This document shows positions 6,362 to 60,056 of a stretch of 64,000 nt of DNA, piece after piece; the stretch's first letter is position 1; each line of letters starts with the position of its first letter. A program made the position numbers and the translations under genes. The notes under the pieces are model-generated. The model was not told where the DNA came from, did not search any database, and was given only the letters and a program-made list of their open reading frames with translations. The DNA lies in the NCBI GenBank assembly GCA_028753945.1, contig JAPNXP010000016.1:868001-932000 (forward strand). The letters run 5' to 3'. The stretch is from Hexactinellida sp. DTS-2022 (lineage: Eukaryota > Porifera > Hexactinellida).

Positions 6362-7589
6362 CTAGCTTTGTACCCGTGCTTCGCCGCGGTATTCAAATTC
6401 ACGGGATGTCTTATAATGAGTAAATAATCATATTTACAAATGTTATTGATAGTATTTCTAATAGCCGAAGCGCCGCCCTCCGCCACAAAAAGGCTTCTTG
6501 GCAGTTCCTGCAAAATATCATTATGTTCCAAAGAACTTGTTATATCTGTACCTCTTTAGTGGTATTACCACTTGGGAAGTACATAAGATAACTGTATATT
6601 CGAAGTATCATTTGTCAGTATTGGAGCTTAGTGTTGTAAAATGAAATTTGAATTTACGTGCTTCCTGACCTGACAGTACCCAGAAGTGTGCAGGGAAAAT
6701 TAATCTGTCCTGTATATCAGGATCGTCAGAAGGGGGGGGCACAGGGGGGCACGTGCCCCCCTCAAAAATCTCGGTGCCCCCCCCACGGTGCCCCCCTCAT
6801 CTGTGCATCCCCTCGCCTGTGCCCCCTTCCCCTGTCCTAATAGAAGAAATAACAACACCAATGATATACATGAGTTCAAATGTCATGATACTACTGCTCT
6901 TATTCGATGTGAAACTATCAAAAAATACATAAAATCACGTGGGGTTTTATACTACTAAGAATTAGTTTTGGTCTGTGCCCCCCCTAAATTCTGATTGCCC
7001 CCTCCCCGATAACACGCTTCCGACGCCCCTGCTGTATATTTAGATTAGTTGTAAGCTGTGAATTCCAGTTGGTTAGTATGTTGTTATGTTTTTACTCTGT
7101 ATTATGTCATGGTGTCCTAGTTCTATAGCAAGGGAGATTCAATTGTTGTCTTCTTTCATACACAATTGACCCATTGAATTATAGACCAATAAAACTCGAG
7201 TCAGAATAATGTGAGAACTGTGCAATCTGATAGGTCAAGGTCGGTACCCTCGCAAAGTGTGAAAAATTGCAAATTATGCATTATATTGACTTTAAAATAT
7301 CATATTTGGATTCCTCATACACTAAAACCTAGATTGCACGTTTGAAATGTTTTCCTAGCAGCACTGTGAACTTTTGATAATTCCCAATGAAATGTATGGG
7401 AAGGTGCCAAAAAATAACATATTTTGAGTTAACTTCGCGAGGAATATAAATATCTCTTAAAAACTCCTTATTCAGGGTGGTGGGGTAACTCCTAGATGGC
7501 ATACAAATTTTGGTTCAGATCTGTTGTGATTTCTCGGAGGAGATGTGAGGACAGACATACACACAAACCTACTACTTTATATATATAGA
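6362..7589 (-). mobile_element. Non-autonomous Helitron
   Basis: On the minus strand it begins TCTATATATATAAAG after an A and ends in CTAG followed by T, the A/T target of Helitrons. About 9 nt before CTAG is a GC-rich hairpin (GCGGCGAAGC arms, 6370-6400). The first ~200 bp resemble the start of the coding Helitron at 18156, including the run leading into CTCACATCTCCTC. No Rep or helicase sequence, so it depends on a relative. It carries a hAT element at 6718. Confidence 0.75.
6718..7031. mobile_element. Repeat-filled hAT-like MITE (GTGCCCCCC motif)
   Basis: The left end CAGGATCGTCAGAAG pairs with the reverse of the right end, CAGGGGCGTCGGAAG. Exact 8-bp duplication ctgtatat at 6710-6717 and 7032-7039. 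The left third is made of GTGCCCCCC-type repeats in both orientations, with more near the right end. It sits inside the Helitron, so it is the youngest layer. Confidence 0.85.
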
Positions 7590-7623
7590 TCTCATAAAGG
7601 ATCCAATGTGTCACTAACACAAT

Positions 7624-8139
7624 CAGCGGCGTAGGAACAATATTGTGTTTGGGGGCCGCGAAAATCATCAACATTATTTCTATTGTCTCTTAGTTTGCTA
7701 AATACTCCTCGAATTAATAATTTTTCTTAAGGCTATCAAGAAATAAGATCGTTTAATAAAGTTTTCTTGCAGTCATTTAATCCAAAACACAAAAAAAACA
7801 AATTTAAATTAGAAAATTAGAAAGCTAATTCAAAAGTATATTAGCGAATAATTAATGGGATTATGCTATTCTCGCAAATATATATGATATCCACAGATAT
7901 ATACTATGGATTCAACACTGTTTGTATATTTAACTATTAACAAGTCAGTGACTTCATTATAAATGGAATAGTAAATAGAGGTATTCAATAATTCAAACTA
8001 ATCGCATCATATATGCCCGATATTTATATGCAGATAAAATCTTTATGATATATAGTAAATTCATTGGGGGGGAAGGCCTCCCAGTGTTGGATGTTGGGGG
8101 GCCACGGCCCCCCCAGCAACCCCCATTCCTACGCCAATG
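7624..8139. mobile_element. Putative hAT-like element
   Basis: The left end CAGCGGCGTAGGAAC and reversed right end CATTGGCGTAGGAAT form imperfect inverted ends. Flanks aacacaat and aataaatt match at only 5 of 8 positions. AT-rich interior; G-run-rich right end. Confidence 0.45.
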
Positions 8140-8492
8140 AATAAATTGTTACTAATTGTATTTCATTGGTTGAAACAATATTATTAGTTTTTGCTAAGCT
8201 TGACTCATTGAGAAATCCTATATATTTTTTAACAAAAATTTCATTTCACTTGACCAATTATATTGTCTTACAATAATATTATCATTGTTCTATCTTTAGT
8301 GAAATTTTCGTCTAATTGGGAATTTGTTTCGAGTTGCAATTTATTTTGGTCTAATGTTTCGGGAATTATAAAAATTCAATCGTGGTCGGAGGATGTGGAG
8401 GGGCCCGGCCAGAAATCTTAGCAGGGGGCCAATAATTTCTGTCGACGGCCCTGCATGCCCCACCATTATCACTATATCCATCATGTACTGTA

Positions 8493-9095
8493 TTTCCAAA
8501 ACTGGGTTCTAAAACCTAGGTGATGTAATAAACAAATAAAAAAGATTCCGAAACGCGCGAAAATATAATCAATAATTATGAATTAAGAATAAAGTTTTGT
8601 TAACACACCAAAAATATATTGTCTAGTCAATGAATTGTCTAGAACCCCGGTTAGGAGACAAATTACATCATTTTTGGTAATCCCATTCAGTTTGCAGCTA
8701 CCGATAACCTATATGTCAATACAGTGGAACCTCGCGTATCGGGGCACCTCCGTCCAAGCGCTCAGCGCCCCGATACGAGGGAGTGCCCCGATATGCGGGG
8801 TTCTAAGAGAACTCCAACATGTTGGGTTAAAACAATTAAGTTAGCACCAACACAACAAATCATACAAATATAGTCAAAACCTAGAGTTAAGGTTGATTTT
8901 CCAGCAGTACTACACATTAAAATTTCACATTATATTTTACCTACACTAGGAGTCACAAATCTATGATATTCACGGATTTTTTTTTGAGTCGAACAAAATG
9001 TAATAACCCTAGGTAATTCAACTGAGGTTAATTGATAGTAAGAATTCTAAGGTGTGGTACAAGGTTTTCCAAGGGGGGGGGGTCTCGGTCCCTAA
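8493..9095. other. Intergenic with one pogo-like end
   Basis: At 8722 a TA-flanked CAGTGGAACCTCGCGTATCG end is followed within 100 bp by a second, reversed GTGCCCCGATATGCGGGG copy, so it looks like a collapsed pogo-type MITE without its outer right end. Nothing else recognised. Confidence 0.4.
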
Positions 9096-9465
9096 ATATG
9101 AATTCCCATTTCCCATTCGCCAATAATAAATTTCATATGGATAAAGTTAACTAATCTCGAGATTTTAACAATATTACCATATATGGAAAATGGAAAGGTG
9201 TGAACATCTCATAACTTACATTCCACAAATATTTTCTATAAACCAATATGACCGTTGGACTCCCAAATATGAATTCCTATACGAAAATGATACATTTCAT
9301 ATGTATAAAGTTAAGTAATCTCGAGATTTTAACAATATTACCATATATGGAAGGGTGTGAAAATCGCATAACTTACATTCCACAAATATTTTCGATAAAC
9401 CAATATTACCGTTGGACTCCCAAAATATGACTTCCTAGACGACAATAATACATTTCCTGTGTCTA
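9096..9465. repeat. Tandem repeat, about 160-bp unit, just over two copies
   Basis: Units begin near 9096, 9264 and 9421 (AAATATGAATTCC or variant). Each contains TAATCTCGAGATTTTAAC and TTACATTCCACAAATATTTTC. The third copy breaks off after ~45 bp. Units differ by substitutions and short indels, so the array is not very recent. Confidence 0.8.
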
Positions 9466-9553
9466 GCATTAGCGGATTACGGGATATCAATAAGTAACAA
9501 TAATGTTTTAGGCCTACGCTAATTTTACCGTAAACGAAGTTTACAGTCCATAT

Positions 9554-9916
9554 CTAAGTTGTTTAATACGCGTATTGCGTATAATACGTATTATGTGTAT
9601 TATATCAATTTATATGTAATACGCTATCGATCAGCATGTATATTATACGCTAATCTATGATCAACTAGGAATGTTTTCAAAGTATTTCAGTAAAGCATAT
9701 TTTTAAATATTATTGTAAATACAAGATTCTAGCAAACAATACTATACAGATTATCTATGAGTCCATTAACAATGAAAGAATAACTATTAAACAGAAAGTT
9801 GTTCAAAGGAAATTTCATGAGCTCGATATTATAACTAGGGTATAAGTATAATACGTATTACATTATACGTATTATACGTAATACGTATCCAATAAAAGAC
9901 GTATTAAACAACTTAG
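9554..9916. mobile_element. Repeat-filled MITE with 8-bp duplication (ATACGTATTA motif)
   Basis: Perfect inverted ends CTAAGTTGTTTAATACG and its reverse. Exact duplication gtccatat at 9546-9553 and 9917-9924. The end motif continues as repeats of ATACGTATTA and variants at both sides of an AT-rich core. The CTA...TAG ends are not the usual hAT CAG...CTG; I group it with hAT by duplication length. Confidence 0.75.
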
Positions 9917-9924
9917 GTCCATAT

Positions 9925-10289
9925 ATTAAAGAAGTCCCTGGTTAAATTAACACATAATTAGCTCGGCTATACCAATAAGATAAGAATGCCAGGTTCAGGG
10001 AGGTGCCCATTTCTGAGAGGTGAGGATCCAGAGGTTTGAGTGTGTAGGATTTACACATACACATTTAATGTTGGTAGCGAACAATTACCCCTATTAGGAT
10101 CTTCTCAATAAAAAGACATTCAGCAATTTGGATCCAAAATATTTCCTCATAAATATTATGCCCGGTAGCTTTTAAGACCTTAAGTTAGAATGGATAAAAT
10201 GAAACAAACCTCATTGAACTTGAACCACTCAAGTCACTATCTGAATCAGATAAAGAATCAGAACCAGAACTACTTTTAGAACTTGAAGA
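9925..10289. other. Intergenic, nothing recognised
   Basis: AT-rich sequence without ORF or bounded repeat, apart from the small reading frame that follows on the minus strand. Confidence 0.4.
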
Positions 10290-10292
10290 CAT
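10188..10292 (-). CDS. Short Ser/Asp-rich reading frame, possible first exon
   Basis: A 35-codon minus-strand frame starts MSSSSKSSSGSDSLSDSDSD. Such acidic serine-rich stretches occur at the N-termini of some nuclear proteins and transposases. A possible splice donor (GAG then GTTTGT) lies near 10207. I found no downstream exon. It may be a chance frame. Confidence 0.2.
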
Positions 10293-10774
10293 TTGATAAG
10301 AATGTGTAACTTATCAATAAATAATAATAAATAATTTCCTGTAGTATTTTCTTTTATCTCGTTGCAAGGCCAATGAATACAATTTACGACGAATGGAAAT
10401 TAGCTACATGAATAAAGTATATTATAAATTAATTAAGGTTGATTGACAAGTATATACACTTCATACAATTCAATGTCAAGTATAGTATAGGGTTGCAAAT
10501 TGCAATGCACAAAACAGATAACATTTATCGAATTGTATATCATATATGAAAAGTACACAGCACATGTCTTAGGTAAGGTGATCCAATGGTCGATTTCAGG
10601 AAAAAGAACTAAAAGCAACATTTGTTGTCTGATTTTTTAAACAAAAATCTACTTTGACATGCTAGGTTTCCGAATGCGAAAGAAAAATTCGAATGGGTAA
10701 TTATTTTGACCTTACTAAAGGTCAAAATCGCAGTAACTTTGTGGAAAAAATCCGGGAAGTGATCTTGTTGCTGT

Positions 10775-13081
10775 CAGGGTTGCCAATCCAATCCAATCGA
10801 GAGAACTTATCGATTATCGATTGCTGAATTTTGTATCGATTGGATTATCGATTGGATTGCCCAAAGTTTTCATCGATTGGATAATTATCGACGGATTTTA
10901 TCGATTATCGATTTTTAATTAATCGATTTTTTCGATTTTTACGAGTAGGGCGAATAATATTAGTATATTTATTTGTTTGGACGAATAAGCATGAAAAACA
11001 TAACAAAATTATGGCTAATGAATTAAACACCTCCATAAAAATGTGAATTCAAAATTTTTGCTGTTTGTTTGCACTTTATATACGGTATTGTTTTATGTAA
11101 ATATCCATATTGAAGCATCTATAGATGTTATTATGTAAGGCCAAACTATACTCAAGAATGATATTGAGATTATGATCTTTTTGGATAGTACCCTATAAAA
11201 TAAACCAGCATTTAAAATTTCAGCAGTTTCTGACTCATACTTTCGAAGTTGCGACCTTTTTAGAGCTTAGGAATGTATGCATCATCATCAAAAGCTGAGT
11301 TTTCAGATGGACGATCATAACTTTTGGTCTAGATTTCACAGATTTGGTTCAATATGCTTGAAATCAAGTTTAAATGAATGAATACATATGTTCCTTTATA
11401 GAAATACGTTTTTTAACACTTCCGAAAAAAACTTTCAGAGTTACAGCAATTTGAAGTCAGATTTCTACCGCCAACCTATAACATTTCAATGTTTGGCAGT
11501 CAAAGACTGACTTCAATGGGCTGTTACTCTGAAAGTTTTTGTCGGAAGTGTTAAAAAACGTATTTCTATAATGGAACATATGTATTCATTCATTCAAACT
11601 TGGTTTCGAACATATTGAACCAAATTTGTGGAATCTAGACCAAAAGATATAATGGTAGGTTTTTACATACACCACTATTTTGACTCAAATCAAGTGAATT
11701 TATATATTTATAACTATTTTGCAAATGCTTTCATCCGTTTTTCATATGAGTTGGTAATAGTACATAGATGTGAATACAAAGTTAGTGCTAAGCTCTAGAG
11801 TTTATAGTTTTCGAGAAAAATATTTGAAAATCATCAAAAATGGGCACACTTTATGCCCATATATGGTCATTTGGAAAAATTGTGCGAGTTAGGGTCTCAA
11901 AATGTATTATTGAGGGATAGTAAACCGGGTAGAGGGATCATTTTGCACTCAAAATTTTATTTATTGGTCTACGGGTTACTGAGATTCAAAATAGAAAAGT
12001 GAAAGGACCACCCAATGAGTTGAAAGGTCAGAAAGTTTTAATTGCTTGAGCGTTCACAGTTTTTATCCTAATTGTTTGAAACCAAGTGTAAACTAATGAA
12101 TATATATTCAATTTGGAAATGACCCTTGATCTAAACTCTACAATGCGAACTTTCAGAGTTCCTGCCCTTTGAAGTCTGACTTGGCACATTGACAATCCAA
12201 ATCTGACTTTAAATGACTATAAATCAGAATTTTTCGATTAGAATGTTGAAAATTTTGGTTTAGATCCTAAGTATATATGCAAAGATACTATTGGATGAAT
12301 AACAACAAAATTGATAGTAAATTATGGCAGTGCGAGCCTACAAACTTTTTAACCCATTTGAAAAAGTCACCCTCCATGATGTTCATCACATTCCAGGATC
12401 TTATAAAGGTCGCTACAGCAAAACTATGGGTCAGATTCACCTGAAATTTGAAATGTAGGTATACTTTACAGGGTACTATCCAAAAACAATCGAATTAGGA
12501 TTTATCTGACGAGCATTGTGGGGCCGTAATTTAAAATTTCGTCCGAAATTGGCTATATAACAGGGAATTCCTGGGTCACAGAGCCCTACTGACTTCAAAT
12601 CTACTCAGAATTCAAAAAAAATTTGGCAGATTATTTACCAGTGTGAAAGAAACAGGAAAACGAATTAAACTCATTTTCCCATTTGCAGTATAGTTTGGCC
12701 TTATGCTGCTCTAAACTTAAATGTATAAATTCATAATATTGTTGTTCAAATACTTTTGCCTGGGTACTAGTGTCATATTTCTTACTCATGGAGACATGAT
12801 AAACAACCCTAAATAAATATTCTATAAATTATAATAATCGATAGAAAATCGATAAATAATTGATTCTAAAATCGATAAATAATCGACAAATAATTGATAA
12901 AATATCGATAGAAAATCGACAAATAATCGAGAGAAAATCTATAAATAATCTATAAATAATGAATGATTTTTATCGATTATCGATTGGATTGGATTGTCAG
13001 ATCATATCATCGATTGGTTGGTTATCGATATCGATTGCCAAAATTAACATCGATTGGATTGGATTGGATTGGCAACCTTTG
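10775..13081. mobile_element. Large repeat-filled hAT-like element (TATCGATT/GATTGG motif)
   Basis: The left end CAGGGTTGCCAATCC pairs with the reversed right end CAAAGGTTGCCAATCC. Flanks gttgctgt and gtttctgt match at 7 of 8. The first ~160 bp and last ~250 bp consist of TATCGATT and GATTGG repeats. Inside, 11307-11490 and 11495-11655 form an imperfect hairpin, and TATGTAAGGCCAAACTATA near 11135 recurs inverted near 12690. Apparently non-coding. Confidence 0.78.
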
Positions 13082-13244
13082 GTTTCTGTAGAGGTTAATA
13101 AATATTATTTACTTGATTTTTCAAAAAAAATTAAGGATAAATTTGTACCACGAAAAATAATTTCATTTTTCTTTTTGAGCAACAAGTTAGGCATTTAATG
13201 TCAAATTATTAGGAACAAAGAAGAATGATTCTCCACTCCTGTAA

Positions 13245-13575
13245 GACAAAGCTAATATCAAATATCAATCAAGGTAGCTTAAATGTTCGATAGAAGTAAG
13301 TTTGTGAAATCGAATCAAATACAATACTTTAGACACCTCTCTAAGTTGCTAAAAGTTCGGTCTTAATTCGAACTTAAGTTCGATCTTAATTCGTAGTTAC
13401 TAAGAGCGGTATTCACAAAGATTTAAGTTCGATGATAAGACCGAACTTCAAGCAACTTAGAGAGTTAAGTAATCTATTTGATTCGATTTTCACTAATTAG
13501 GTCATAAACGTTGTTCAAACATACTTGTATCGAACATTTAATCTACTTTGATTGATATTAGACTTCAAATAAAAT
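13245..13575. repeat. Foldback element centred near 13400
   Basis: Arms 13250-13345 and 13435-13570 are imperfect inverted copies (CTAAGTTGC, TTCGGTCTTA, GATTGATATTA and others). The centre reads GAGCGGTATTCACAAAG, resembling PIF/Harbinger MITE ends. Superfamily uncertain. Confidence 0.5.
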
Positions 13576-13635
13576 AAATATTTTTGAAAGGTTTCTGATA
13601 TTGTCTGTAAACATCACATGATATAATTGGTAGTA

Positions 13636-14130
13636 CAGTGCAACCTCTATAAGTGGGGTCTCTATAAATGGGGAACCTCTATAAGTGGGGAAATTTTGGT
13701 CCATATTCCTTAATTTCCATACAAATGATCCTCTGATAAGCGGGGAAGTGGTGAATGGGGGACCTTAATTGTAAAGGAATTAAGATCCCCATACAAAATG
13801 ACCTCTATAAATAGCGGAGATGGACAAATCATAATACTTATAAATTATGCTGCATTTCTAATAAATACATTATAAAATTCTACAGAATAAATATTTTTGA
13901 TGGCTAAACTCTAATCTTCTTTAAGAAATCATCGGCGGTGGATCAGAAATTAACTAAATTGTCAAAATAGACAAATACTGGCTAGAACTTACATCAATGG
14001 ATGTGTTATAAGTGTATATTTCATAATATGACCATATGTAGCGTCTATCCATTTAAAATTATAACTGGGGAATGGGGGGCAATTCAAATTTTTCCCGTCC
14101 CAAGCTCCCCCACTTATAGAGGTTGCACTG
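13636..14130. mobile_element. pogo/Tigger-like MITE
   Basis: Ends CAGTGCAACCTCTATAAG and its reverse, flanked by TA on both sides. Terminal sequences contain further copies of the AACCTCTATAAGTGGGG theme. The core is AT-rich and non-coding. Confidence 0.85.
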
Positions 14131-14335
14131 TATATTATTCTTGGCTTGTATGAATAAACATACCTACATTGTTTGAAATGTATGTATAATCCTACCTAGT
14201 TCTAATATGCATTACCATAATTAAATGGTTTATATATTTATTCGCACGACTGTTGGAAATCATTTACATGAATTTCCCAACAGTATTTGACGTTTCAATC
14301 TATAATACTCCCTCTCTTCTTCTATTAACTTAAGC

Positions 14336-15160
14336 CAGTGGTTCCCAAACTTTTCCAAAAAATTTCACGACATTACCCCCTAACCTATCTTTTTGCTATA
14401 GTTCCCCCCAGCACTACAATGTAGAATTTTGGTATTGAAATAACTGAAAAACTAAGTGAAATATAAATAATACTGTCAATGACAGTGATGTGCTCCGTTA
14501 CTAGTAACATAGTAACGGTAACGGTAACGGTAACGGTAACGGAAAAAGTAACGGTAACGGATGTCGACAAGTGACGGTAACGGAAAAAAGTAACGGTAAC
14601 GGACATCCGTTACTTTGACTAGTTACCGTTATCTTTAATCAGTTACTCTTACCAATACTTTACCGTAACACATACGTTAAACTTATTCCTTTACCATTAC
14701 GACGTTATTTTAAATCAGTTACCGTTACATTAAGGTAAACTGTGCTGAATAAAGGAAAACGGATAAACTTAACAAAAGTAACGGAGTAACGGTAACGGAA
14801 GAAATAAAGTAACGGTAACGGAGTAAAAGTAACGGGTGAAAAAAAAGTAACGGTAACGGAACAAATAAAGTAACGGTAACGGAGTAACGGTAACGGAACA
14901 AATAAAGTAACGGTAACGGGGTAACGGTAACGGGAGATATAAAGTAACGGTAACAGGTAACGGAAGATTTAGTAACGGAGCACATCACTGGTCAATGAGA
15001 ACTGTCAATATTATGAATACTAGGTATTTTTTAATTACTCAGTAATTAAATCATTCAGTGAGACAAAGTAATCCAGAAAATTTCATTAATATTTATAAGT
15101 ATACCTATGACGAATTCCTCCCAGAGGATGGCCAAATTCCTCCCAGGTTGGGAACAACTG
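14336..15160. mobile_element. hAT-like element split by a second hAT element
   Basis: Ends CAGTGGTTCCCAAACTTTT and CAGGTTGGGAACAACTG with the exact duplication acttaagc at 14328-14335 and 15161-15168. Without the insertion at 14483 it is about 300 bp. Right side has two CCAAATTCCTCCCAG-like repeats. Confidence 0.88.
14483..14990. mobile_element. Repeat-filled hAT-like MITE (GTAACG motif)
   Basis: Ends CAGTGATGTGCTCCGTTACT and its near-exact reverse. Exact duplication gtcaatga at 14475-14482 and 14991-14998. Most of the interior is GTAACGGTAACGG in one strand orientation, with a short middle stretch reversed. Long frames here encode only repeat peptide and are not genes. Confidence 0.92.
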
Positions 15161-15195
15161 ACTTAAGCTGTGCTGAAAATACAGCCATCTGTTGA

Positions 15196-17147: not shown

Positions 17148-17164
17148 CTCGAGAAAGAGAATAT

Positions 17165-18777: not shown

Positions 18778-19184
18778 CAGGGGTGGTGAATCTGCTGTAT
18801 CAGCTAATTATTAGCTGGTAACAGCTGAGAATTCGTCCCCAATTGGCATTCAACCTTAACTGCATTTAAGTTTTTTTTAAGCTGTTAACAGCCAATGTGA
18901 GCTGTTAACAGCCAATTCTAGTTCTTAACATCCAATTCAAGCTGTTCAAATTCAATAATTGCATCAGTAAAATTAAGAAAACGGGACAAGCAAAGAAAGT
19001 TATACTCAAAAATGTTTAGATTCGAATTGCATATCGTATTTAAATAACAGTGAAAATGAAACTATATGATTATATAATAATATTTCAATTATTGCATTGG
19101 TCAGTATCTAGCTGTTAACAGCTTCGATTTTCATTTGCTGTTGACAGCCAGTGGCTGTTAACAGCTTGGCTGTTTCCATCCCTG
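18778..19184. mobile_element. Repeat-filled hAT-like MITE (GCTGTTAACAGC motif)
   Basis: Starts CAGGGGTGGTGAATC, ends CTGTTTCCATCCCTG. Exact duplication aatataca at 18770-18777 and 19185-19192. The self-complementary 12-mer GCTGTTAACAGC and one-base variants recur at least six times on both flanks of an AT-rich core. Confidence 0.9.
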
Positions 19185-29489: not shown

Positions 29490-29836
29490 TAGCTCTTTGA
29501 TATATAATTGTAATTGTAAATATTGAATTAACAAGAAATATCATAATGGACTAGAGAGATTGAAGTAATGTGATGCATGATTACAATCATAGGCGCCGAA
29601 ACTCTCCAGCGCCAGGGGGGTGTAACTCTACATTTATATGTGAAAGGTCAAAAAACCGATTCCTATGGTGCATGTACGCAAAGTTTGCAAGTATAAGATT
29701 AAAATTGGGGTGCGCGCGGAGCGAACGTTGCGAGCGATCCTTTGGATATTCTGGGGGCAAGCAACCTAGAAAAAAATGTACTGCGAGATACCCAGATATC
29801 TATTTGTTTTGAATGAATTATACGTATAATTTACTA

Positions 29837-30484
29837 CAGTAGAGCCTCTGAACAACGGACACCTTGGGACTGGAACCGTTGTCCGTTATTTAGAGGTTGT
29901 CCGCTATTTAGAGGTTGCTTGTCTATTAGACATACACTACCCGGACAAAAGTATTCGACCACCCAACATTTTCCCATTGAAAATAGTACTATACTAGGTT
30001 GAACAATGAAAGATTGTGTTTTCAAATTACATGAGATATTGATATTTCGATAACAAATTCGTATTCTGCGCATTCGAATTAACAATTGTAGAAGCTTTCA
30101 ATTAAATCCCTTTTCTATTCGGTTAAAAATTATCATCCTGTGACAATATATACCACTTTTCCCAAATTGCCACTATGGGAGAGATGGGAACAGGTGGCAC
30201 ATGTTGCCATTTGATGATAATTTCAGCCAAATTAATATGTTATCAATTTGAAAGAATCTAAAATGGGTAATTAGCATGCGTAGAATACGAATCTGAAATC
30301 AAAATAGCAGTATGTCATAATGTTTTAATACATTGAACAATATTATTAGACCTACTATAGTACTATTTTCAATGGGAAAATGTTCGGTGGTCGAATACTT
30401 TTGTCCGGGTACTGTATGCTAAATAAATAAATCCGTGCCACGAGGGTTGTCCATTTGGAGTGTCCGTTATGGGAGGCTCCACTG
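29837..30484. mobile_element. pogo/Tigger-like MITE, fourth layer
   Basis: TA-flanked, ends CAGTAGAGCCTCTG and GGGAGGCTCCACTG. Once the 29935 insertion and one TA are removed it matches the 184-bp copy at 18160 in reverse orientation. Confidence 0.9.
29935..30414. mobile_element. Tc1/mariner-like MITE, innermost layer
   Basis: Inverted ends of nearly 60 bp starting CA(C/G)TACCCGGACAAAAG, flanked by TA. The target is the ACATATGC of the pogo MITE, seen uninterrupted at 18250. The interior has no transposase frame. Confidence 0.9.
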
Positions 30485-30899
30485 TATACTAAATTATATT
30501 GAACATTGTATTTTTTATTCAGAGGGCACGGTAACACCGCACCAATAATGTTGTCCCCTTCAATTTACGGGGTGGACGCGCACCCCCCTGTTTGCGCCAC
30601 TGCTATGGTGGCTTAAAATCATTATTTTTTTGACTGGCATAAATATATAAATCATCCAATGTTATTTAGAAAAACTCCTCTTGGAATTATAATTTTCAAT
30701 GGGTTTACGTGTATGTTTTATACTTTAACAATAAAGAATATTTCTAATATACCCTCCCTGAACATGAGGGGTATACCCATAATACCCTTCCTGATTCTTT
30801 CCTCAGCCAGTGGGGGTGAAACCCTCCCTGACAAAACCAGGGAGGGTGTAACCCCCCCTGACCCCCCACATTCGGCGCCTATGATTACAATAGGTAGTA

Positions 30900-32164: not shown

Positions 32165-32648
32165 CAGGGTTGCCAACTCTCACGCTTTAGGCGTGAATCT
32201 CACGCTTTTTTTAAAATCTCCCGCTCTCACGCTTAGATTCGAAATCTCACGCTTTATTATAAAATGGTAAAATTGTCAAAAACGTAGTGCGATTTGATTA
32301 TAAGGTCACAAAAAGTTACTAAAGAATACAACGAGGAGCACTAGCTTAGTATGAACTATTTTAGTACTATTAGTCTTGAATTAGTAGATTTTATTATTTT
32401 GCATTACAATAGATAATTACTCATGTTAGTTTTTTTAGTAATTATTCGCATTATTTATCAAAATAGATAGGTAGCATAAAATTCATGGGCGAGGCAAAAT
32501 AAACTCTTATTATACTGCTTTCTGAAGTGAAAAATAATTTATCACGCTTTTCAGCCAAAATATCACGCTTTATACTATATTCCTCACGCTTTTTTAAAAT
32601 TAAGGACAAAATATCACGCTTTGGGCTTAAAAAAAGTTGGCAACCCTG
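32165..32648. mobile_element. Repeat-filled hAT-like MITE (TCACGCTTT motif)
   Basis: Ends CAGGGTTGCCAACTC and AAGTTGGCAACCCTG. Exact duplication ttcactat (32157-32164, 32649-32656). TCACGCTT occurs four times near the left end and four near the right, all in the same orientation, around an AT-rich core. Confidence 0.93.
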
Positions 32649-38485: not shown

Positions 38486-38591
38486 CATAGGCGCAAACTT
38501 TTGACCTGTAGCCAAAAGTGCCAGTGGTGCACCTCAATACAAACTACAGGTGGACCTAGCACCACCTGCACCACCGTACTTTGCGCCTATG
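38486..38591. mobile_element. hAT-like MITE, CATAGGCG family, smallest copy
   Basis: Ends CATAGGCGCAAA and TTTGCGCCTATG; exact duplication attacatt (38478-38485, 38592-38599). 106 bp, with repeated GTGCACC/TGCACC. Confidence 0.9.
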
Positions 38592-39259: not shown

Positions 39260-39832
39260 ATATTATACGTGCCAATCGTATAGGGATCCCTGCACAGTAA
39301 AAGAATTTTAACCATTTTGGCCATTCTATACAGGCGTACAGGGATTTATTCCATTTATATAGGGATTTTTAATTTACTAATTATGAGTAAATAATGCCTA
39401 AAATGTCTACAGGAGTGATAGTATATCTGCCATGCATTCTGCATTGACTACATAAAGGCGGCACGTTGTTTCTATATTTATTAAAGTGTATAGTAAATCC
39501 CTGGACGAGCGAGCGCAGCGAGCGAGATATTTTTGGGGATGTATAGGAATTTTGGCCAATGTACAGGGGGAAATTGGAGCCCTGTATAGGCATAGGCGTC
39601 GGAAATGGGCCCGTGGGCCCTTCGGGCCACCCGGCCCGAAGGCTCCGGTGCCGGCCCAATCGATTCTGGGGCCGCTACATTCACGGCATCACTAACACAA
39701 CTATGGGCCGGGCATGGGCCGGGTAGAGCCGGGTAAACCCTTCGGGCTGCCCGGCCCATGCCGGGTGACCGGGTGGGTCCGACGCCTATGTGTATAGGGA
39801 TATGATTCAAATAGGTTGGCAGGTATGCTTTA
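39260..39832. repeat. CATACCTGCC repeat, inverted copy
   Basis: The reverse of 39800-39832 reads CATACCTGCCAACCTATTTG. The rest matches 17929-18142 in reverse, including the CCTGTACAGGG segment. Interrupted at 39591. Confidence 0.6.
39591..39790. mobile_element. Repeat-filled hAT-like MITE, CATAGGCG family (GGGCCGGG motif)
   Basis: Ends CATAGGCGTCGGA and TCCGACGCCTATG; exact duplication tgtatagg (39583-39590, 39791-39798). GC-rich interior of GGGCC/GGCCC, CCCGG and CCTTCGGGC blocks, unlike its AT-rich surroundings. The empty target is seen near 17960. Confidence 0.92.
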
Positions 39833-41240: not shown

Positions 41241-41534
41241 CATAGGCGTCGTTGCTGGGGGCGGGGGGGTCTCGCCCGCCCCAGATTTCGTCCCTCAGCT
41301 GGCATTTGTCTTGAAAATTAGTTGAAACAGTGGAAGATGACAGGTTTTTAATTTGTCCAAAAATGCCAAGTTGCATAAAGCTTTCTCAGTAAATTTACAT
41401 CTCACTTCAGTTATAAATTTAAAAATTATGTGTGATTTTTGCTTATTAATTGTAACATAAAATAAATGTCTTTTAAATGTTCTCTGGCTGCCCCCCCCAG
41501 AATTTCAGAAAAATTGGTAAGTTCGAAGCCTATG
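41241..41534. mobile_element. hAT-like MITE, CATAGGCG family
   Basis: Ends CATAGGCGTCG and CGAAGCCTATG; exact duplication attactat (41233-41240, 41535-41542). The matching arm at 38025-38060 shows the target once and uninterrupted. Confidence 0.93.
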
Positions 41535-44462: not shown

Positions 44463-44659
44463 CAGTGGTTCTCAACCGGGGGTGCGAGGTAGGATTCTGG
44501 GGGGTGCGGGAAAAGAGTACAAGTTCTGTTTATAGTAAAAAATCAACGATATTACGTTTACCAGGGGGTGCGAGAGTTAATTTTGAAAGCTAAAGGGGTG
44601 CGGAAGTTGAATTTGAAAGCTGAAGGGGTGCGGAAGTTTAAAAAGGTTAAGAAACACTG
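44463..44659. mobile_element. Repeat-filled hAT-like MITE (GGGGTGCG motif)
   Basis: Ends CAGTGGTTCTCAACC and GGTTAAGAAACACTG; exact duplication atctagac (44455-44462, 44660-44667). GGGGTGCG recurs five times in one orientation, twice within a ~31-bp unit containing TTGAAAGCT. Confidence 0.93.
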
Positions 44660-48600: not shown

Positions 48601-48604
48601 TCCA

Positions 48605-51160: not shown

Positions 51161-51164
51161 TATA

Positions 51165-51837: not shown

Positions 51838-53425
51838 CCTTACACAGCTGGCGCTTTACTGTGCCGACTATACTATAGTATAGTGGCCCAGTATTGAAAT
51901 CACTGCCTTTATTTCTATATTTTTTCTCCGTAGACGGTGCCCTGGCCAGAGCTTTATAGTTGATGAGCTGAAACTTGGCATGTAGGTGCGATGGGTGTAG
52001 GTCTAATTTGCACCTGGGGTTACGATTTTTGATTAACAAATTTTGGCACATCTTTAACACCTTTCAAAATTTGTCTGGTCCATAACTCAAAAAATGTTAT
52101 ACTAAACCCCCAATTTTTATTTCACCATTGGATTCATCTTCAAATTCTGCGTCTGATGGGAGAAGAATATTTTTTATAATGGTTTTTATTTCTGCCATAA
52201 ATGGGGGTTGAAATTTCTTTGTTTACTCGCACTTCAATTTTAATAAAACTGTTAATTATAATTCTATTGTTTCAACTTGCGATAATTAATTGATTCAACT
52301 TATAAATTCCAGCTGGATTCTATTTAATTGTAGTATTACTATACAATGGATTAAATATAATAAAATAATATAAGGAATTTGTTGACTAACCCAACTCACC
52401 GTGGATAACATTGCTAAAATAAATAACTAATAATATAATTTATTATCAATACATAATGAATGAATGGCATTAAACTCAAGATGGTTTATGATAGATCTAT
52501 TATCTACCGTTCCTTTTGACTCGGACCAATGAACAAATAGTTCTTGACTCCTTGAGGCGTTGATGACGGCGAGAAAAAATCCAAAATTGCAGCCTGTGCC
52601 GACAGCATGCTCCTTTTGGCTCTATCAATAAGCAACCAACAAATATAGTACCACCAAAGGAACATGCGTCGGCACAGGTTGCAATTTTGGATTTTTTAAT
52701 TCTAGTTTCCATGAATAGACACTAGAGTTTTTGGAACTTGCGGTTATATAGTTTCTTACCTAATATTCTGCAAAGTTTCCAACTTCAGTATTCCGCCTAT
52801 GTGAAGCATTTTGTAACACTATCGAATCGCATTCCTAAATATTTTCTAAGTTGTTTTTAATTAAAATCCTGTATCCTTAGATGTTCTATTAAGTCAGTTA
52901 GAGATATTTAATTACTTACAAATTGCCTAAATGTAGAATTCTCTCGTATCGCTAATGCAAACTTCCTCAGAAGCATCCTTATTACAAGTTGAAACAATAG
53001 AATTAGATTCAATATAATTATTACAAGTTGAAACAATGGAAATTGATTTAACAGTTTACTGAATCGGAAGTGTGAGGAAATAGAGGAGATTGGCACCCAA
53101 ATTATGGCACTAGGCCAAATTGAACATTTGTGATTTGCCAAAAGGTGTAGAATTTAATTCTCTATCCAAATATGTAATTTTTAGTAATCTCACTATTATA
53201 TAATTCATGTTATGAGCCATGATTAGTTTAAATAGGTGTTGTAATTCTTTGATCAAAAACCGTAACCCCAGGTGCAAATTAGACGGTCACTCCGCATCTA
53301 CATGCCAAGTTTCAGCCCTCAATGTATAAAAGTGTGCCCAGGGCACCGTCTGCGGATAAAAAATATAGAATAAAGGCAGTGATTTCAATACTGGCCACTA
53401 TACAAAAGTATAGTCGGCCATGGCC
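51838..53425. mobile_element. Foldback-type element with about 200-bp inverted ends
   Basis: Left 51855-52035 and right 53250-53425 are inverted copies (GACTATAC, TGAAATCACTGCCTTTATT, CTAATTTGCACCTGGGGTTA). Inner arms near 52235-52310 and 52985-53060 are also inverted (TTGTTTCAACTTG). It holds the foldback at 52573. No ORF of note; duplication not resolved. Confidence 0.65.
52573..52697. repeat. Foldback element, copy 2
   Basis: Arms AAAATCCAAAATTGCAGCC and TGTGCCGA with inverse near 52670-52697; sibling of 37666-37792. Confidence 0.8.
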
Positions 53426-53429
53426 TACT

Positions 53430-54630
53430 TAATATACGGTTATATGTATATGTCGCCGAGAAGACAATAAAACAAAATGCCAGTTTCTAATTTTCATCTA
53501 GGATAAACTATGCCTCCTATTGTTGTTATTTGGGTTGTATATGGGTAATCAACCATTGCGATTCCATTAGATCCACTTTTGAGAATCTCAGATTTGTGGT
53601 TAAGGGGAACACTTATTGAATTTAAATGTGTTCATTTGTAAGCAGCTAGTTTAGAAATAGTTTGTTGCTAAGAGATTTTGATGTCTCACTTCACATTGAT
53701 TGCATACACACATATTTCTCAATAAAATTTTTGAGACGAATTTCCAATAAGACTTAGCAATCTTGTTAAGATTAGCAACTACGCAAAAATTTGCAGGTAG
53801 AAGCTAGACGAGATAGTTTTGTTGTCGGGTTCCCCGATAATAAAATAGTGTAAAAAGTTAATTAATCACTCTGACAACGGGATAGTATTTCAATAAACTG
53901 AACACAAATTATTACTCAAGTAAATCATAGACTATTTTTCCAATTAAAAAAGTTTGAAAGTATAGAACGGCTGCGTATATACTTAATGGTCTCATTAGTT
54001 ATTACGGCTATTCAGAGTCGATCTAGAACTAACTGTGTCTTGTTCTAATAAAGAAAACTGTGATTTTTTAATTGGCTAATAAATCTACCATTGCAAGTTA
54101 GAACATTATCATGGCTGTGGACTTATATATTCACAATAGCATCAGGATGTTAGTTTGCCCTTTCTTGTATCGTTTATCTTATCAAAACTCCAATTTATTG
54201 ATTTCTTAATTTTGTCAAGTACATGACATAATTTTATTGACCTATTGAGTCTAAATAATTGCAGTTGAAGTTGGTTTGAATAAAAGCTCTTCGCTAAGAC
54301 TATTTTTGAATAAATAAATAAGCTTAATATGTGTAATTAATATAGCATGGGCGTGCAAACAATGCCAACTAAACACGCAAAAGGCTCATAACTTATAAAT
54401 TTAACACTACGTATATGTAAATGTTCATACGATTCAATATAAATTGATTCGCCGTCTTTAGTCCTTACTAAAATATCAAACGTGTTTCATCTTAATAATA
54501 ATAATTATTATCTAATTAATAACTCCCTGGCGATATAATATTTCTCTCCTGATACAGTACAAACATAATAGCTTATGATTAATAAGTTAAGCTATTTAGG
54601 CGCCATTTAATGATGACACCACAAATATAC
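53430..54630. other. Intergenic, nothing recognised
   Basis: AT-rich, no supported gene, ends or array. Confidence 0.45.
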
Positions 54631-54634
54631 TATA

Positions 54635-54819
54635 CAGTCAACTCCGCTTAATAGGGCCACCTCGGGACCAGGTTGTTTTGACCCGATTAAGCGGAGAAAC
54701 CGATTAACCGAAAATATTGTAAGCCAAACTGTAATTCTGTCCTGTAAATCCTGTGAAATTTTGACCCGATTAAGCGGAGAAACCGATTAACCGGTGGCTC
54801 TATTAAGCGGAGTTGACTG
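54635..54819. mobile_element. pogo/Tigger-like MITE
   Basis: TA-flanked, ends CAGTCAACTCCGCTTAAT and its exact reverse. The GATTAAGCGGAGAAACCGATTA motif occurs twice. Clean copy of the 33286 family. Confidence 0.92.
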
Positions 54820-54821
54820 TA

Positions 54822-55774
54822 TATACAATCCGAGTCAAAAAACTACAAGAAAATGAAAATAATTTGCTAATATACTTAGAATACATTTTCCGAATATATA
54901 ATGATAAAGAATATATATAAACCAGCAATTATATACGTTTTATGGACGAAAATAGTAAGTTGTAATTCGAATAATACTTGTATTTTAGCATGTGGTTGCT
55001 TTATAATTTTTTAAAAATTTAGAATGTCGCCATTTTGTGATTTAGTAGCCTTTGGGGAATTTAAATTTATCCCTATTTAGTATTCCTATTATAAAATTAT
55101 TAGAAAGTAGGAACTAACTGAAACTTATGATATTTGCAAAAATTTTACTAGTTTAAACTTTAAAAATATTATCTTATTAATTGTATTGAAATTCAGTAAG
55201 TTATTGCGAAGGTGGTCAGAACCTGGTCTGCAAAAATTCTGCCCAGGTTTGACCTAGTCAGTTTGTATTAGTGCACGGCCCTGGCTAGATTTAGAAAAAT
55301 TTGAAAAAATATTGTGGTTAATTAATTATTACTATTTATTAATTAGAGTGCAAATGGATACCGTATTGCTTCGTATAAGCGCCGGGTCAATTACTTTGGA
55401 ATTGGTTTGTTCAAATTAAAACACATTATTTGTTAACAGGATTGTAATTATATTGATTTTGTAAACTACAGTATCTCTACTGTCACCGAGCACCATTCGA
55501 CCTACCTACAAATTATTTTCTATATTTTCCAATTCACGAAAACAATAAGACCGGGGACCTTATTATAAGCAATTCGAAGCAGAACCTCGTTTGTTTAAAC
55601 ACCAAGGGACAGTCTAAATGTGTACTCCTTATCAGGGATTGGTATTAACCAATGTCATTTCTATTGAAATAATTTCAAGGGGACTGGAATAGTGTTCGTA
55701 TTAATTAACGAGGTTCCACTTCCACTGTACGTACATTTACTATGTATTTATATCTAATAATAATATTCTTGCCC
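54822..55774. other. Intergenic, nothing firm
   Basis: AT-rich. 55550-55735 has pogo-like traces (GACCGGGGACCTTATTATAAG; CGAGGTTCCACTTCCACTG) that may be ends of one worn element. Confidence 0.35.
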
Positions 55775-55943
55775 GTGACCTACGTTATATAAGGCCTATT
55801 CACCAAATTTGTGAACCGTGACCATGGATTAAGGGAAGGCCATTGATAAATAGGTTATTTGTCGTTATCTAAATAACTAGTAGTGATAGACCTCATAAAT
55901 GTTCTATAACTATATAGGAACATGGTATAAAGGTATACATAGC

Positions 55944-56502
55944 CAGAGTTGTGGATTTGATTTGATTTGGATTTGATTTGGATTTGATTTGGATGGATTT
56001 GATGCATTTTAACAGGAAAATGATTTGATTTGATTTGGATTTGATTGACTATTATTTGATTTGATTTGGATTTGATTTAATGTTTGAGTCAAATCCTTTA
56101 AAAAATTTAATTTACGTACTATACAATTTGTAATACATATGATATTGATGATATTACACTAATAGTAGACTCGTAAATCCGAATTTTGGAAATTCGAACA
56201 GATTTTGTTAGCTAGCGTTTGTATTAACGTGAATAAATATCTGTATAATACATAGTATATATTATATTATATTATATTATATCTAACTAAGTACGCATCT
56301 CAATTAATTATCTCTGAAGTATTTGGATTTGATTTAGATGGATTTGATTTGGATTTGATTTGGATGGATTTGATTTGGATTTGATTTGGATGGATTTGAT
56401 TTGGATTGAATTTGATTTGGATTTGATCTGGATGGATTTGATTTGGATTTGATTTGATTTGATTTGGATTTGAATGAAATATCAATCAAATCCACAACAC
56501 TG
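55944..56502. mobile_element. Repeat-filled hAT-like MITE (TTTGATTTGGA motif)
   Basis: Ends CAGAGTTGTGGATTTGAT and ATCAAATCCACAACACTG; exact duplication tacatagc (55936-55943, 56503-56510). Blocks of TTTGATTTGGA and GGATTTGAT, all on one strand, fill both flanks of an AT-rich core. The other palindrome arm shows the empty target. Confidence 0.95.
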
Positions 56503-57123
56503 TACATAGCATCCTTCAGAATTGAGCTATGCCATCATTTGTTTACGTAATCGCTATTTTTGGTGGGTATTATCGTGTTTTTATAGCCTGTTTTCAACAT
56601 AGTTACACGCGTTATAAATGTTCAAAATTGGAACATGATGATACGCATAACTAGTTAGATGAAATATATCGAAATTATCAATGGAATGTTGACACATTCC
56701 TCGGTTGCCAAGGAAATGAATATTTCTAAAATGACCCATATCTCAAAACTATCTATTTTATGTTAACTAGGCTAGAACTGATCCATCCGCAATAGGTAAC
56801 TTCCTATTCATTGATAATACATTTTCTAGGCCTAACTACAATAATTTTTGAGATAATAAATAATTAGCACTTAATTCCTTATGAGGTTATACACTCATTA
56901 TCTCAAAAATTATTGTAGTTAGGCATATACAATGTATTTTCAATGAATAAGAAGTTACATATTGTGGATAAATCAGTAATAACCTAGTTTGCATAAAATC
57001 GATAGTTATGAGTTATAGCTCATTTTAGGAAATATGCATTTCCCTGGCAACCGAGGATTGTGTCAACATTCCATTTATAATTTCGATATATTTCATCTAA
57101 CTAGTTATGGGCATCATCATGTT

Positions 57124-57302
57124 CAAGGAATTATCTAGGAGCGCGAGACGCTCCTTTGGAGTATGATTTGGAAAATTTGAATTTAGGAGCGCGAAAATTT
57201 GGAATCCTCTCCTATACCGTGACATTAATTTGTGATTTAGGCATATAAAATTGGATCAGACCACGATTAGGAGCATATTACAAATCGCTGTATAATACAC
57301 TG
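57124..57302. mobile_element. hAT-like MITE, AGGAGCGCG family
   Basis: Starts CAAGGAATTATCTAGGAGC, ends GTATAATACACTG; exact duplication atcatgtt (57116-57123, 57303-57310). TAGGAGC/AGGAGCGCG repeats inside. The opposite palindrome arm shows the empty target. Confidence 0.88.
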
Positions 57303-57902
57303 ATCATGTTCCAATTTTGAACATTTATAACGCGTCTAAACTATGATAAAAGCAGGCTATCAAAACACGATAATACCCACCAAAAATAGCGATACGTAAT
57401 CAAATGATGACATAGCTCAATTCTGAAGGATGCTATGTATTCCTTGATACCATGTTCCTATATAGTTACAGACAATTTATGAGGTGTATCACTATTAGTT
57501 ATTTAAATAACGATAAATAACCTATTTATCAATGGCTTTCCCTTAATCCATGGTCACGTTTCACAAATTTGGTGAATAGGCCTTATCTATCGTAGGTCAC
57601 GTCTTGCCTTATTTCATCACACTGATGACAGTCATAATTAACTCAACAAATAACAATATATTCGCTGTATTTTGTTAGAATTAGTAAGTTTTAGGTAGGT
57701 ATAATTCATTATCATTTGGTTATAGTACATTATTTATACCTTCATTATTTAATTTTCCCATTTTATGAATAGTAAACATCGTATTTTTAGCAATTGATGT
57801 ATTGATTAACGCAGTTTCACTTCATTATACTTCCCTATTCAATGGGAAGCATATGGTTAGTTTTCATTGATATTATCTTAGATCAAATGATTTACTTTCT
57901 AA

Positions 57903-57920
57903 ATGTGTGGTAATGAATAA
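57903..57920 (+). promoter_or_regulatory. Short upstream frame overlapping the carrier start
   Basis: ATG at 57903 opens a five-codon frame (MCGNE, then TAA) that overlaps the carrier ATG at 57913 in another frame. If transcribed from upstream it could lower translation of the carrier. Transcript start unknown, so function is inference. Confidence 0.4.
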
Positions 57921-58881
57921 GCTATCATCACATGATACTCCACCTAAACTCCATATTCTGATTCTCGCTTCATCAATTGGGGGTATTTGTTCAGGATTTG
58001 TTACATTACCATTCGAAGTTGTAAAAGTTCGGCTCCAATCTCAATTGTTAAATGTTTATTCTACTTCGCTGATATACTGCAATAAATATATACAAAGTTT
58101 ATGTATTTGTACTCATACATGTAATTATTATAAACATAATGCGTTTTCTGAGACTTGTATTATGTTTAAACAAATATTGAAAGAAACAGGACCAAAGGGT
58201 TTTTGGAGAGGTCTCTCACCCACATTATTGCAATCAGTTCCTCAGGTCACTATATACTACACATTGTATCAGAAATTGAAACATTCTTTAGGTTATATTA
58301 ATTCAGATTATTCCAGTTGTTTTATCCCAGCTGTTGCTGGAATTGGTTCAAGAATCATAACGTGTTTTATGGTTGCTCCATTAGAATTGCTCCGAACTAA
58401 TATGCAATCTTCTACTATATTCACCATCAAAGATTTATATCTTCTTTCAGTAGAATCGATAAGATCAAAGGGTTACATTCCATTATGGCGTGGGTTTAAG
58501 CCAATGTTAATTAGAGATGTTCCTTTCACAGCGTTATATTGGAGTGGGTTTGAAACATTTAGGTTTAAGTTGCAATTGCATTGTAATAGTATTCACAATA
58601 AAACTAGTGATGTGTTAATAACTATGGTATCAAGTGGAGTGTGTGGAACTGTTGCTGCTGCCCTTACAACGCCAAGCGATGTACTGAAAACGCAAATAGA
58701 AATAAGTATTCAGGACACGAAGTTTCAAAATCCAACCTTAATTCGTAATATTCTTAATATTTATATGAAATATGGGATTAAAGGGTTCTTTAAAGGAGTT
58801 GTACCAAGGTGTGTTAAAGTTGGACCTGCTTGTTTAATAATGATGACAACATATGAGTTTATCTCGAACTTTTTTTCTTAA
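57913..58881 (+). CDS. Mitochondrial carrier, SLC25A39/SLC25A40 (Mtm1-like) type
   Basis: Intact single-exon frame of 322 codons from ATG 57913 (a longer reading would need a GTG start). Three carrier repeats are marked by PFEVVKVR (from residue 33), PLELLRTN (from 156) and TPSDVLKTQ (from 253). RGLSPTLLQSVP, LWRGFKPMLIRDVPFTALYW and GVVPRCVKVGPACLIMMTTYEF match SLC25A39/A40, the inner-membrane carriers required for mitochondrial glutathione import. The first matrix loop is long and holds five cysteines (56, 64, 66, 70, 82); in mammalian SLC25A39 cysteines of this loop are reported to sense iron-sulfur status. Repeat 3 has Ser between Pro and Asp, within family tolerance. Carriers usually have six helices and work in the inner membrane. 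No intron, unlike most animal orthologues. Confidence 0.9.
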   Translation: MNKLSSHDTPPKLHILILASSIGGICSGFVTLPFEVVKVRLQSQLLNVYSTSLIYCNKYIQSLCICTHTCNYYKHNAFSETCIMFKQILKETGPKGFWRGLSPTLLQSVPQVTIYYTLYQKLKHSLGYINSDYSSCFIPAVAGIGSRIITCFMVAPLELLRTNMQSSTIFTIKDLYLLSVESIRSKGYIPLWRGFKPMLIRDVPFTALYWSGFETFRFKLQLHCNSIHNKTSDVLITMVSSGVCGTVAAALTTPSDVLKTQIEISIQDTKFQNPTLIRNILNIYMKYGIKGFFKGVVPRCVKVGPACLIMMTTYEFISNFFS

Positions 58882-59703
58882 TTGATATCCATGAATCTTA
58901 TTATTTTAGAATTTATACTAGTTTCATCTCTATATTGCTTAAATTTCAAGTATTAATGATGTATTTTGGACGATCCATTATATTTCAATGAATTTATACT
59001 TCTTTAGTTTATTTATGATCTTTTATCATCGCTAGTTGGGTTGGGCCGGTCCGGCTGCTCTCAAATGACCACATATAACTTTGGATAATTACGTTTGTCT
59101 TCTAATGATAAAATCTAATGACAGAGATGACTCGTCAGTCAATTGGCAGTTTGTCGAGCTCATTCTACTATGATTCAAGCCTTCATAAAATTTGCATTTA
59201 AATATATTCGAGCCCTTCGGCCTTGATCTCTCGGCAAAGGGTTCATTAACCATCTAGATCTTCTTATTTATTTCTAAATTAAGCAGAGCAGAGTGTATAT
59301 TTTTCATTATAAATGTTTATGCAAATTTCTTCTTGCTTTATTGCCGGTATATAGTAGGTAGGTAGGTAACACAATAAAAATATAAATTAAGTATGAAACT
59401 ATTGAGAATTTTTATTTTTAATTTAGATAACTTTAAAATCGCTAATATTTTTCAGAGATATAATTCAGATTCGAAGTATTAAAAAGCTTAGTTGATGGTC
59501 CAATGAAACTATAAGGCCCTCTTGGGTCATCAACTTAAATGATATCTGTTAATAAATAGTATACGTATTATAATATTTTTCTTAAGTCAATCGGACTCAG
59601 TTTTCTTGTACCCTCACATTGAAAATCCATTGTGTATGTGCTTCTGGGAAATTCAATTTTAAAAAGCACCCTTTATTCAAAAGGATATGTCTAAAATTAT
59701 ATG
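58882..59703. other. 3' flank of the carrier gene, nothing recognised
   Basis: AT-rich; a GTAG tetranucleotide run near 59355; possible polyadenylation signal AATAAA at 59373. Confidence 0.4.
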
Positions 59704-59711
59704 ATAACACT

Positions 59712-60056
59712 CAGAGTGGACCATGGGTCAGATGGGTCACTTAAATTGATGGGTCATGGGTCACGGCTCTGTGACACATGACCCTTGACCCATTTGGAAT
59801 TTCGATCTTTGCCCAGTTATAGTACGAATCAAATGAACCCAGAAACATTACAGAGTATTTCTTTGGTATAAGAAGTCTACCAAAAGTAATTGATTGACAA
59901 GTATCATCATTTATTATAAGTAGGATTGTGTTACATAATGTTTAGATATTAAAAATTAGATATTTAAAAAGGTCACTGGGTAACACGATGAGTCAAAGCG
60001 TTACTTGATGGGTCAATGGGTCATGGGTCACCAATGTTGACCCATGGTCCACTCTG
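59712..60056. mobile_element. Repeat-filled hAT-like MITE (ATGGGTCA motif)
   Basis: Ends CAGAGTGGACCATGGGTCA and TGACCCATGGTCCACTCTG reversed at the right edge. Flanks ataacact and atagcaat match at 6 of 8. ATGGGTCA or variant recurs about eight times, mostly in one orientation, on both flanks. Confidence 0.88.

Follow-up and report, generated by a model that had tools for sequence, protein, structure and literature searches.

Elements of the window

The window analysed here, 64,000 nucleotides in length, comprises positions 868,001 to 932,000 of the forward strand of contig JAPNXP010000016.1 from Hexactinellida sp. DTS-2022 (Porifera; Hexactinellida; GenBank assembly GCA_028753945.1). It contains ten hAT-like elements which an earlier reading of the letters alone, hereafter the sequence-only reading, had described as sharing 8-bp flanking duplications, short inverted ends and an internally repeated motif that differs between families. 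Each element was checked base by base with its boundaries shifted by up to 4 bp in either direction, and the optimal boundaries coincided with the coordinates proposed earlier in all ten cases. The 8-bp target-site duplication (TSD) is exact in eight elements and decayed in elements 3 and 10. The left tip starts with CAG in 8/10 elements (CAT in element 7, CTA in element 2), and mismatches between the left and right tips number 0-5 over 14 bases, apart from element 3, where 8/14 arise because of a 1-bp shift (CAGGGTTGCC against CAAAGGTTGCC). The elements are as follows, families being numbered after them.

6718..7031, unstranded: element 1, non-autonomous hAT, motif GTGCCCCCC, TSD CTGTATAT exact
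9554..9916, unstranded: element 2, tip CTAAGTTGTTTAAT, palindromic motif ATACGTAT, TSD GTCCATAT exact
10775..13081, unstranded: element 3, tip CAGGGTTGCCAATCC, motif TATCGATT, TSD matching at 7/8 bases, middle (11136-12703) an inserted repeat
14483..14990, unstranded: element 4, tip CAGTGATGTGCTCCGTTAC, motif GTAACGG, TSD GTCAATGA exact
18778..19184, unstranded: element 5, palindromic motif GCTGTTAACAGC, TSD AATATACA exact
32165..32648, unstranded: element 6, tip CAGGGTTGCCAACT, motif TCACGCTTT, TSD TTCACTAT exact
39591..39790, unstranded: element 7, tip CATAGGCGTCGG, motif GGGCCGGG (weak array), TSD TGTATAGG exact
44463..44659, unstranded: element 8, tip CAGTGGTTCTCAAC, motif GGGGTGCG, TSD ATCTAGAC exact
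55944..56502, unstranded: element 9, tip CAGAGTTGTGGATT, motif TTTGATTTGGA, TSD TACATAGC exact
59712..60056, unstranded: element 10, tip CAGAGTGGACCATG, motif ATGGGTCA, TSD matching at 6/8 bases

The window was also scanned blind for inverted 12-bp tips with an exact flanking duplication of length k, giving 46, 13, 13, 5, 15, 1, 1, 0 and 0 pairs for k = 4 to 12; five shuffled controls at k = 8 gave 0, 0, 0, 1 and 1. The 15 pairs at k = 8 comprise elements 2, 4, 6, 7, 8 and 9, five additional hAT-like elements and four other inverted repeats, and elements 1, 3, 5 and 10 fall outside the scan thresholds at this length. A comparable scan of 320,146 fetched bases returned 88, 12, 84, 7 and 7 pairs for k = 6 to 10, in which many of the 84 pairs at k = 8 are copies recruited by the searches and about one third are an inverted repeat within the insert of element 3, not hAT.

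Arrays were assessed by comparing the commonest 7-mer of each element with 200 random stretches of the window. None of the 200 equalled elements 1-6, 9 or 10, and the proposed internal repetition therefore stands for eight of the ten; it is borderline in element 8 (equalled by 1.0% of stretches) and weak in element 7 (3.5%). The first motif copy lies 11-42 bases from the left tip. The five additional hAT-like elements have no strong array (27%, 100%, 84%, 4.5% and 100% of random stretches), and arrays are thus common among hAT-like elements, not universal.

Repeat families in the genome

The genome searched comprises 112.4 Mb in 18 contigs, with about 40 candidates scored in each element search. 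Nine of the ten elements belong to repeat families, and element 7 had no separate entry in the set of 40 scored candidates. For element 1, 40 of 105 candidates were scored, itself included, at 90-100% identity, and 6-8 copies of GGGGCA/TGCCCC were present in all eight copies fetched. Element 2 has many copies at 80-90% identity, element 5 has family members at 83-95% and element 8 has copies at 96-98%, and element 6 is represented, counting itself, by 14 near-complete places of at least 87% identity together with shorter relatives. Forty candidates were likewise scored of 247 for element 4, of 156 for element 9 (copies and length variants) and of 418 for element 10, among whose copies the right array differs in length. 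A 19-mer joining tip and motif of element 3 occurs exactly 297 times in the genome and the tip 19-mer of element 4 occurs 237 times, the reversed control being 0 for each. A second copy of element 3, in L091/L092, has the TSD ATCCTATG at both sides.

Lengths range from 197 to 559 bp apart from element 3, which contains an insert. The features of miniature inverted-repeat transposable elements, namely short length, tips with a duplication, multiple copies and absence of transposase, were found throughout, copies of family 7 excepted, and the ten elements are non-autonomous hAT transposons. The insert itself (window 11136-12703) is an independent repeat, about 1.57 kb long and bounded by inverted ends (AAGGCCAAACTATACT...), with copies elsewhere that are 94-98% identical; 33 of its 40 best matches lie on contig C11 (15.6 of the 112.4 Mb), which is thus enriched, and three of the C11 copies are spaced 4,094 bp apart.

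Arrays in coding hAT elements

A genome search with the hAT dimerisation domain PF05699, in which 150 places were scored of 638 candidates, supplied ten loci (A-J) that were picked for long frames rather than at random and of which only the ends were fetched. Loci B, D, E, F and H have clear tips flanked by exact duplications, and G has a duplication and a damaged left tip. These loci, together with L070 (described below), were tested for 6-mers within 200 bp of the tips against 200 shuffles. In 8/11 elements a terminal 6-mer was unmatched by any shuffle (A, 25 copies; B, 26; C, 15; F, 7; G, 26; I, 14; J, 24; L070, 8), and the same words occur 0-2 times per 200 bp beyond each tip. Seven of the ten A-J loci carry strong family-specific subterminal arrays, and a repeated short subterminal site is already a feature of coding elements.

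A link to the window is the 5.1-kb L070 on contig C17, which has the same 14-bp tips as element 6 (CAGGGTTGCCAACT) at both ends, the duplication GTTGTACT on either side and the hAT dimerisation domain (1.1e-5). Copies of TCACGC are split 7+1 between its strands and 8+1 in the short element 6; five of the majority-strand copies in L070 lie near the left tip and two near the right. Since L070 already carries the array, it did not originate in the short element. An OTU-like cysteine protease domain (PF02338, 4e-9) also lies upstream of the transposase, at 324-1292 of L070. A transposase-bearing partner with the same ends and motif, of the kind that the sequence-only reading proposed to look for, was found for family 6; for family 4 the first 100 tip sites (of 237) included no convergent pair 1.3-40 kb apart, and for family 3 there was no partner among the first 100 tip sites listed. 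Two candidates were rejected: the 2.95-kb pair at C1:14801406-14804357 proved to be a copy of family 3 with inserts and had no transposase in the 1.5 kb read, and L069, considered for family 6, was set aside for its decayed tips and the lack of any 90-residue frame. Family 1 has a relative only, coding element F, with motif GTGCCCCCC under a different tip.

These coding elements bear on the proposal that the binding motif was amplified in the short elements through selection for outcompeting other copies for transposase. High motif numbers in element 4 (33) and element 9 (37 GATTTG, counting both strands), variation among copies, and the published idea for foldback elements that more repeats with transposase sites lead to more transposition (PMC4079207) would favour such amplification. 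However, no clear excess over coding relatives was found in three comparisons: nine motifs in element 6 against eight in L070, ten GTAATT words in the J-type left end of L034 against 14 in the left end of J, and 6-8 in eight copies of family 1 against seven in F. The best cases, families 4 and 9, are without a known partner. We regard selective amplification as improbable.

Some further features of the window touch on the coding elements. The stretches 4501-4764, 29588-30883, 38486-38591 and 41241-41534 are elements with 8-bp duplications and CATAGGCG tips, a tip class common to element 7, coding element D and these four, which have G-rich words and no strong array. The stretch at about 8385-8455 looks by eye like coding element E at its right end (GGCCCGGCCAGAAATCTTA...CGGCCCTG).

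Orientation of the motifs

Despite the inverted tips, the majority strand of the motif is equal at the two ends in 14 of the 16 cases that are informative, comprising 7/8 coding arrays (F being the exception) and 7/8 window elements whose motif is not a palindrome (element 7 being the exception); in element 6, for example, 8/9 TCACGC lie on one strand. Motif and strand were chosen per element, and of the two counts behind these figures one omits 18 bp at each tip and the other does not. Outside the 16 are D, E and H, which have no significant motif, and the palindromic elements 2 and 5. The binomial P of 0.004 overstates independence, as A/B/J, C/I, 3/6 and 1/F are related, and some majorities are slight (8:6 and 7:5 at the two ends of B, 5:2 and 4:3 in I).

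The claim that the arrays keep one strand in the clearest cases and are not simply long inverted ends is hence borne out. Foldback elements with long inverted ends, or arrays that serve a host factor, would be a different account of the repeats, and the palindromic motifs of elements 2 and 5 fit it; the word of element 3, TATCGATT, moreover resembles TATCGATA, which is bound by Drosophila DREF via a BED finger (PMC6179265), a lead only. As the arrays run on the same strand in 14/16 cases, they are not foldback arms, and long inverted arms were not found. Foldback and host-satellite readings were dropped on the strand evidence and on that from the flanks given below, and we consider them very improbable.

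In Hermes, the subterminal sites at the left end are mostly antisense and those at the right end sense (PMC10368747), an arrangement that may equal the same-strand layout, depending on the convention of that paper.

Sister families and BED fingers

The tip CAGGGTTGGG[GT]TCAA is common to coding elements A, B and J, whose N-terminal parts are 32.7% (A-J, 110 residues), 39.0% (A-B, 82) and 37.0% (B-J, 73) identical, that of J having been assembled across a presumed intron. Their arrays differ at one base of the word GTA-x-TT: x is T in A (GTATTT, 25/27), C in B (GTACTT, 35/40) and A in J (GTAATT, 22/23). The word-by-family chi-square of 135.6 measures within-element uniformity only, as sites within an element are non-independent. 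The genome contains 395 matches to the pattern of this tip, against 0 for the reversed control, and among the first 100 of these sites all 32 convergent pairs, defined as adjacent convergent sites within 3 kb in a list transferred by hand, have the same tip variant at both ends (23 G, 9 T). The matching variants are explained by common descent of the two ends, and they show that the ends changed together.

The Pfam scan covered A, B, C, D, H, I, J and L070. A BED finger (PF02892) was recognised in A (6.5e-9), B (7.1e-10), J (5.3e-6) and I (6.6e-7); that of C, the loop of which differs, scored below the cut-off, and none was recognised in D, H or L070. The second zinc cysteine and the first zinc histidine are separated by 17 residues in A, B, J and I, like C54 to H71 of Hermes. 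Base contacts in Hermes are made by R63, Q64, T65, S66, N67 and R70, of which R70 touches G17 and T18 (PMC10368747). At these six positions A has K, A, T, S, N and L, B has K, V, T, S, N and K, and J has T, S, T, S, N and T, with Thr-Ser-Asn kept in all three fingers. They differ at the residue equivalent to Arg70, which contacts the variable base in Hermes and stands immediately before the first zinc histidine: B (site AAGTAC) has Lys there, A (AAATAC) has Leu and J (AATTAC) has Thr. For G, an opposing Arg or Lys is a usual pairing. The fingers of I and C have Ser-Thr-Lys-Gly at the contact positions, and both elements have CCCGG-type words. Site and finger co-vary in the three sisters, and the comparison of coding-element words and BED fingers agrees with the earlier inference that motif and finger diverge between families. 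At L023 3632 lies another BED finger, closely resembling the one in element I (STKGLHVH), with no recognisable array end beside it.

The match between the residue at the Arg70 position and the site base is a prediction from three families, not proof, and other positions vary as well. We tentatively suggest that A, B and J may form a readable series of BED specificity, in which a recognition-helix residue (Leu, Lys and Thr, with Arg in Hermes) changes together with the site base (AAATAC, AAGTAC and AATTAC, with AAGT in Hermes), and that the same-strand arrays might additionally make the two ends unlike and so help left/right discrimination; this combined reading is possible, with the odds somewhat against it.

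Variation in array length

Both tips were present in 28 of 30 fetched family-4 loci, with 26 exact duplications, one with a single mismatch and one with none. Arrays were counted in the 27 copies with at most one duplication mismatch, two of which hold further inserts. On the array strand, TAACG occurs 8-30 times left of the core and 10-22 times right of it, and the total per copy ranges from 23 to 55 motifs, in keeping with the suggestion that copies share ends and duplications while array number varies. None of the 27 has the same ends without an array, pairs of about 200 bp (C4:3250912) being outside the sample, and the arrays do not extend across the tips, the flanks holding 0.22 motif per 600 bp. 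In the fetched DNA, a small and biased sample, 397 of 402 GTAACGG dimers lie inside loci with a family-4 element, and the spread outside that would follow if the elements seeded microsatellites or satellites, as had been supposed, was not found.

In the window, element 4 is nested within another hAT-like element (14336-15160; tips CAGTGGTTCCCAA, duplication ACTTAAGC), and the array of one family-4 copy contains a 728-bp insert with TTAAGGTTAAAT tips (L052 2031-2758). The word of element 4 resembles AAACGG, the site of Ac, a resemblance that is a lead only.

Neutral microsatellite growth, in which a slippage-prone word expanded unconnected to transposase, would account for some of these observations: the longest perfect (GTAACG)n run varies from 2 to 20 units across the 27 copies with 6 bp as the commonest spacing, elements 4 and 9 contain tandem units of 6, 11 and 15 bp, and in Hermes the inner sites are not needed. 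Against it, spaced copies in families 6 and 8 and in L070 are separated by unrelated spacers, the identical word is found at both ends and in the inner tip, 8/11 coding elements carry such a word as well, and one altered base is present in nearly all sites of the sister families. Purely neutral growth is accordingly unlikely in our judgement, though less so than selective amplification.

Interpretation

The reading that we favour, at a probability of roughly 70%, is that the arrays are each family's subterminal repeats, predicted to be sites for the N-terminal finger (BED or similar) of its own transposase and already present in the coding elements. The short copies would look to be entirely array through loss of the coding middle, and would persist by keeping the tips plus the array. 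A multimeric transposase may grip several sites via single weak fingers, with affinity perhaps rising with site number, against which the Hermes data partly speak, and family-specific words would keep specificity; three left-end sites have been seen bound in Hermes (PMC10368747). Site and finger would change together, the new specificity reaching nearly all sites of an element as the word change spreads through the array via slippage, unequal exchange or gap repair, and tandem units may grow and shrink via slippage or gap repair.

Several points weigh against this reading. L070 is not intact, having a stop in the finger region, and Pfam did not recognise that region. A partner was found for one of ten window families (family 6), with families 3 and 4 covered through their first 100 tip sites and the others without a dedicated search. 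Among the coding elements, no matching duplication flanks the tips of A and J, the duplications of C and I are near matches only, and D, E and H show no significant array in the 200-shuffle test. The alignment to the Hermes finger rests on published residue numbers and equal spacing, not on a database match: the B finger alone gave no match to solved structures, and a five-finger profile matched the structures of ZBED1 (4e-6) and ZBED2 (1.6e-4), not Hermes. Thr-Ser-Asn is present in ZBED1 too, the site of which differs. Hermes retains about 70% of its activity without the inner sites, and long arrays may therefore be mostly slack, or may matter in competition. A role of the arrays in end identity is a guess without confirmation from Hermes, which requires unlike ends but in which restoring unequal sites within the first 50 bp failed to rescue a left/left element (PMC10368747).

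Two questions are open in this field, namely what keeps a transposase family-specific when numerous sister families coexist in one nucleus, and how DNA is read by BED fingers, which host regulators including DREF and the ZBED proteins also employ. Where a single genome shows the presumed sites of many hAT families in high copy, with sisters one base apart, both become testable predictions.

Comparison with known systems

Subterminal sites, family-specific words and BED recognition are already established for Hermes, Herves and hAT-19 relatives (for Tol2, the motif only). Hermes has short sites inside both tips, with 17 and 14 AAG(T/C) at its two ends, and its BED finger, which is bound to subterminal AAGT, has Thr65-Ser66-Asn67 and Arg70; AAGT lies within the AAGTAC of family B (PMC10368747). 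The present genome differs in its dense, near-tandem arrays, its many families and the one-base shifts between sisters (AAGT, AAAT, AATT). Herves of Anopheles has one motif, CG/AATTCAT, at both ends; four direct repeats are bound, and such a tetramer suffices for binding (PMC3143072), but a single family with several sites is concerned. In CGGBP and the hAT-19 fingers, different fingers prefer different words, and four hAT proteins have motifs that match sequence in the subterminal regions of their own elements (PMC8097297); binding was measured there, whereas the evidence here is that of sequence, from several families in one genome. Tol2 has the palindrome AAGTACTT beside its tip, and its first 50 bp hold five copies of AAGT, the family B word (PMC10368747), with fewer sites than here. 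The foldback elements Galileo (P superfamily) and Tetris share internal tandem repeats, those of Galileo adding transposase sites, but differ in the THAP finger of Galileo, the 220-bp units of Tetris and the location of the repeats within inverted arms (PMC4079207).

No prior account of amplified hAT motif arrays, of the one-base series or of the same-strand rule was found in the openly accessible literature, which is weak evidence of absence. What appears to be new relative to these systems is the scale within one genome, the one-base series with a matching finger residue and the tendency of the arrays to keep the same strand.

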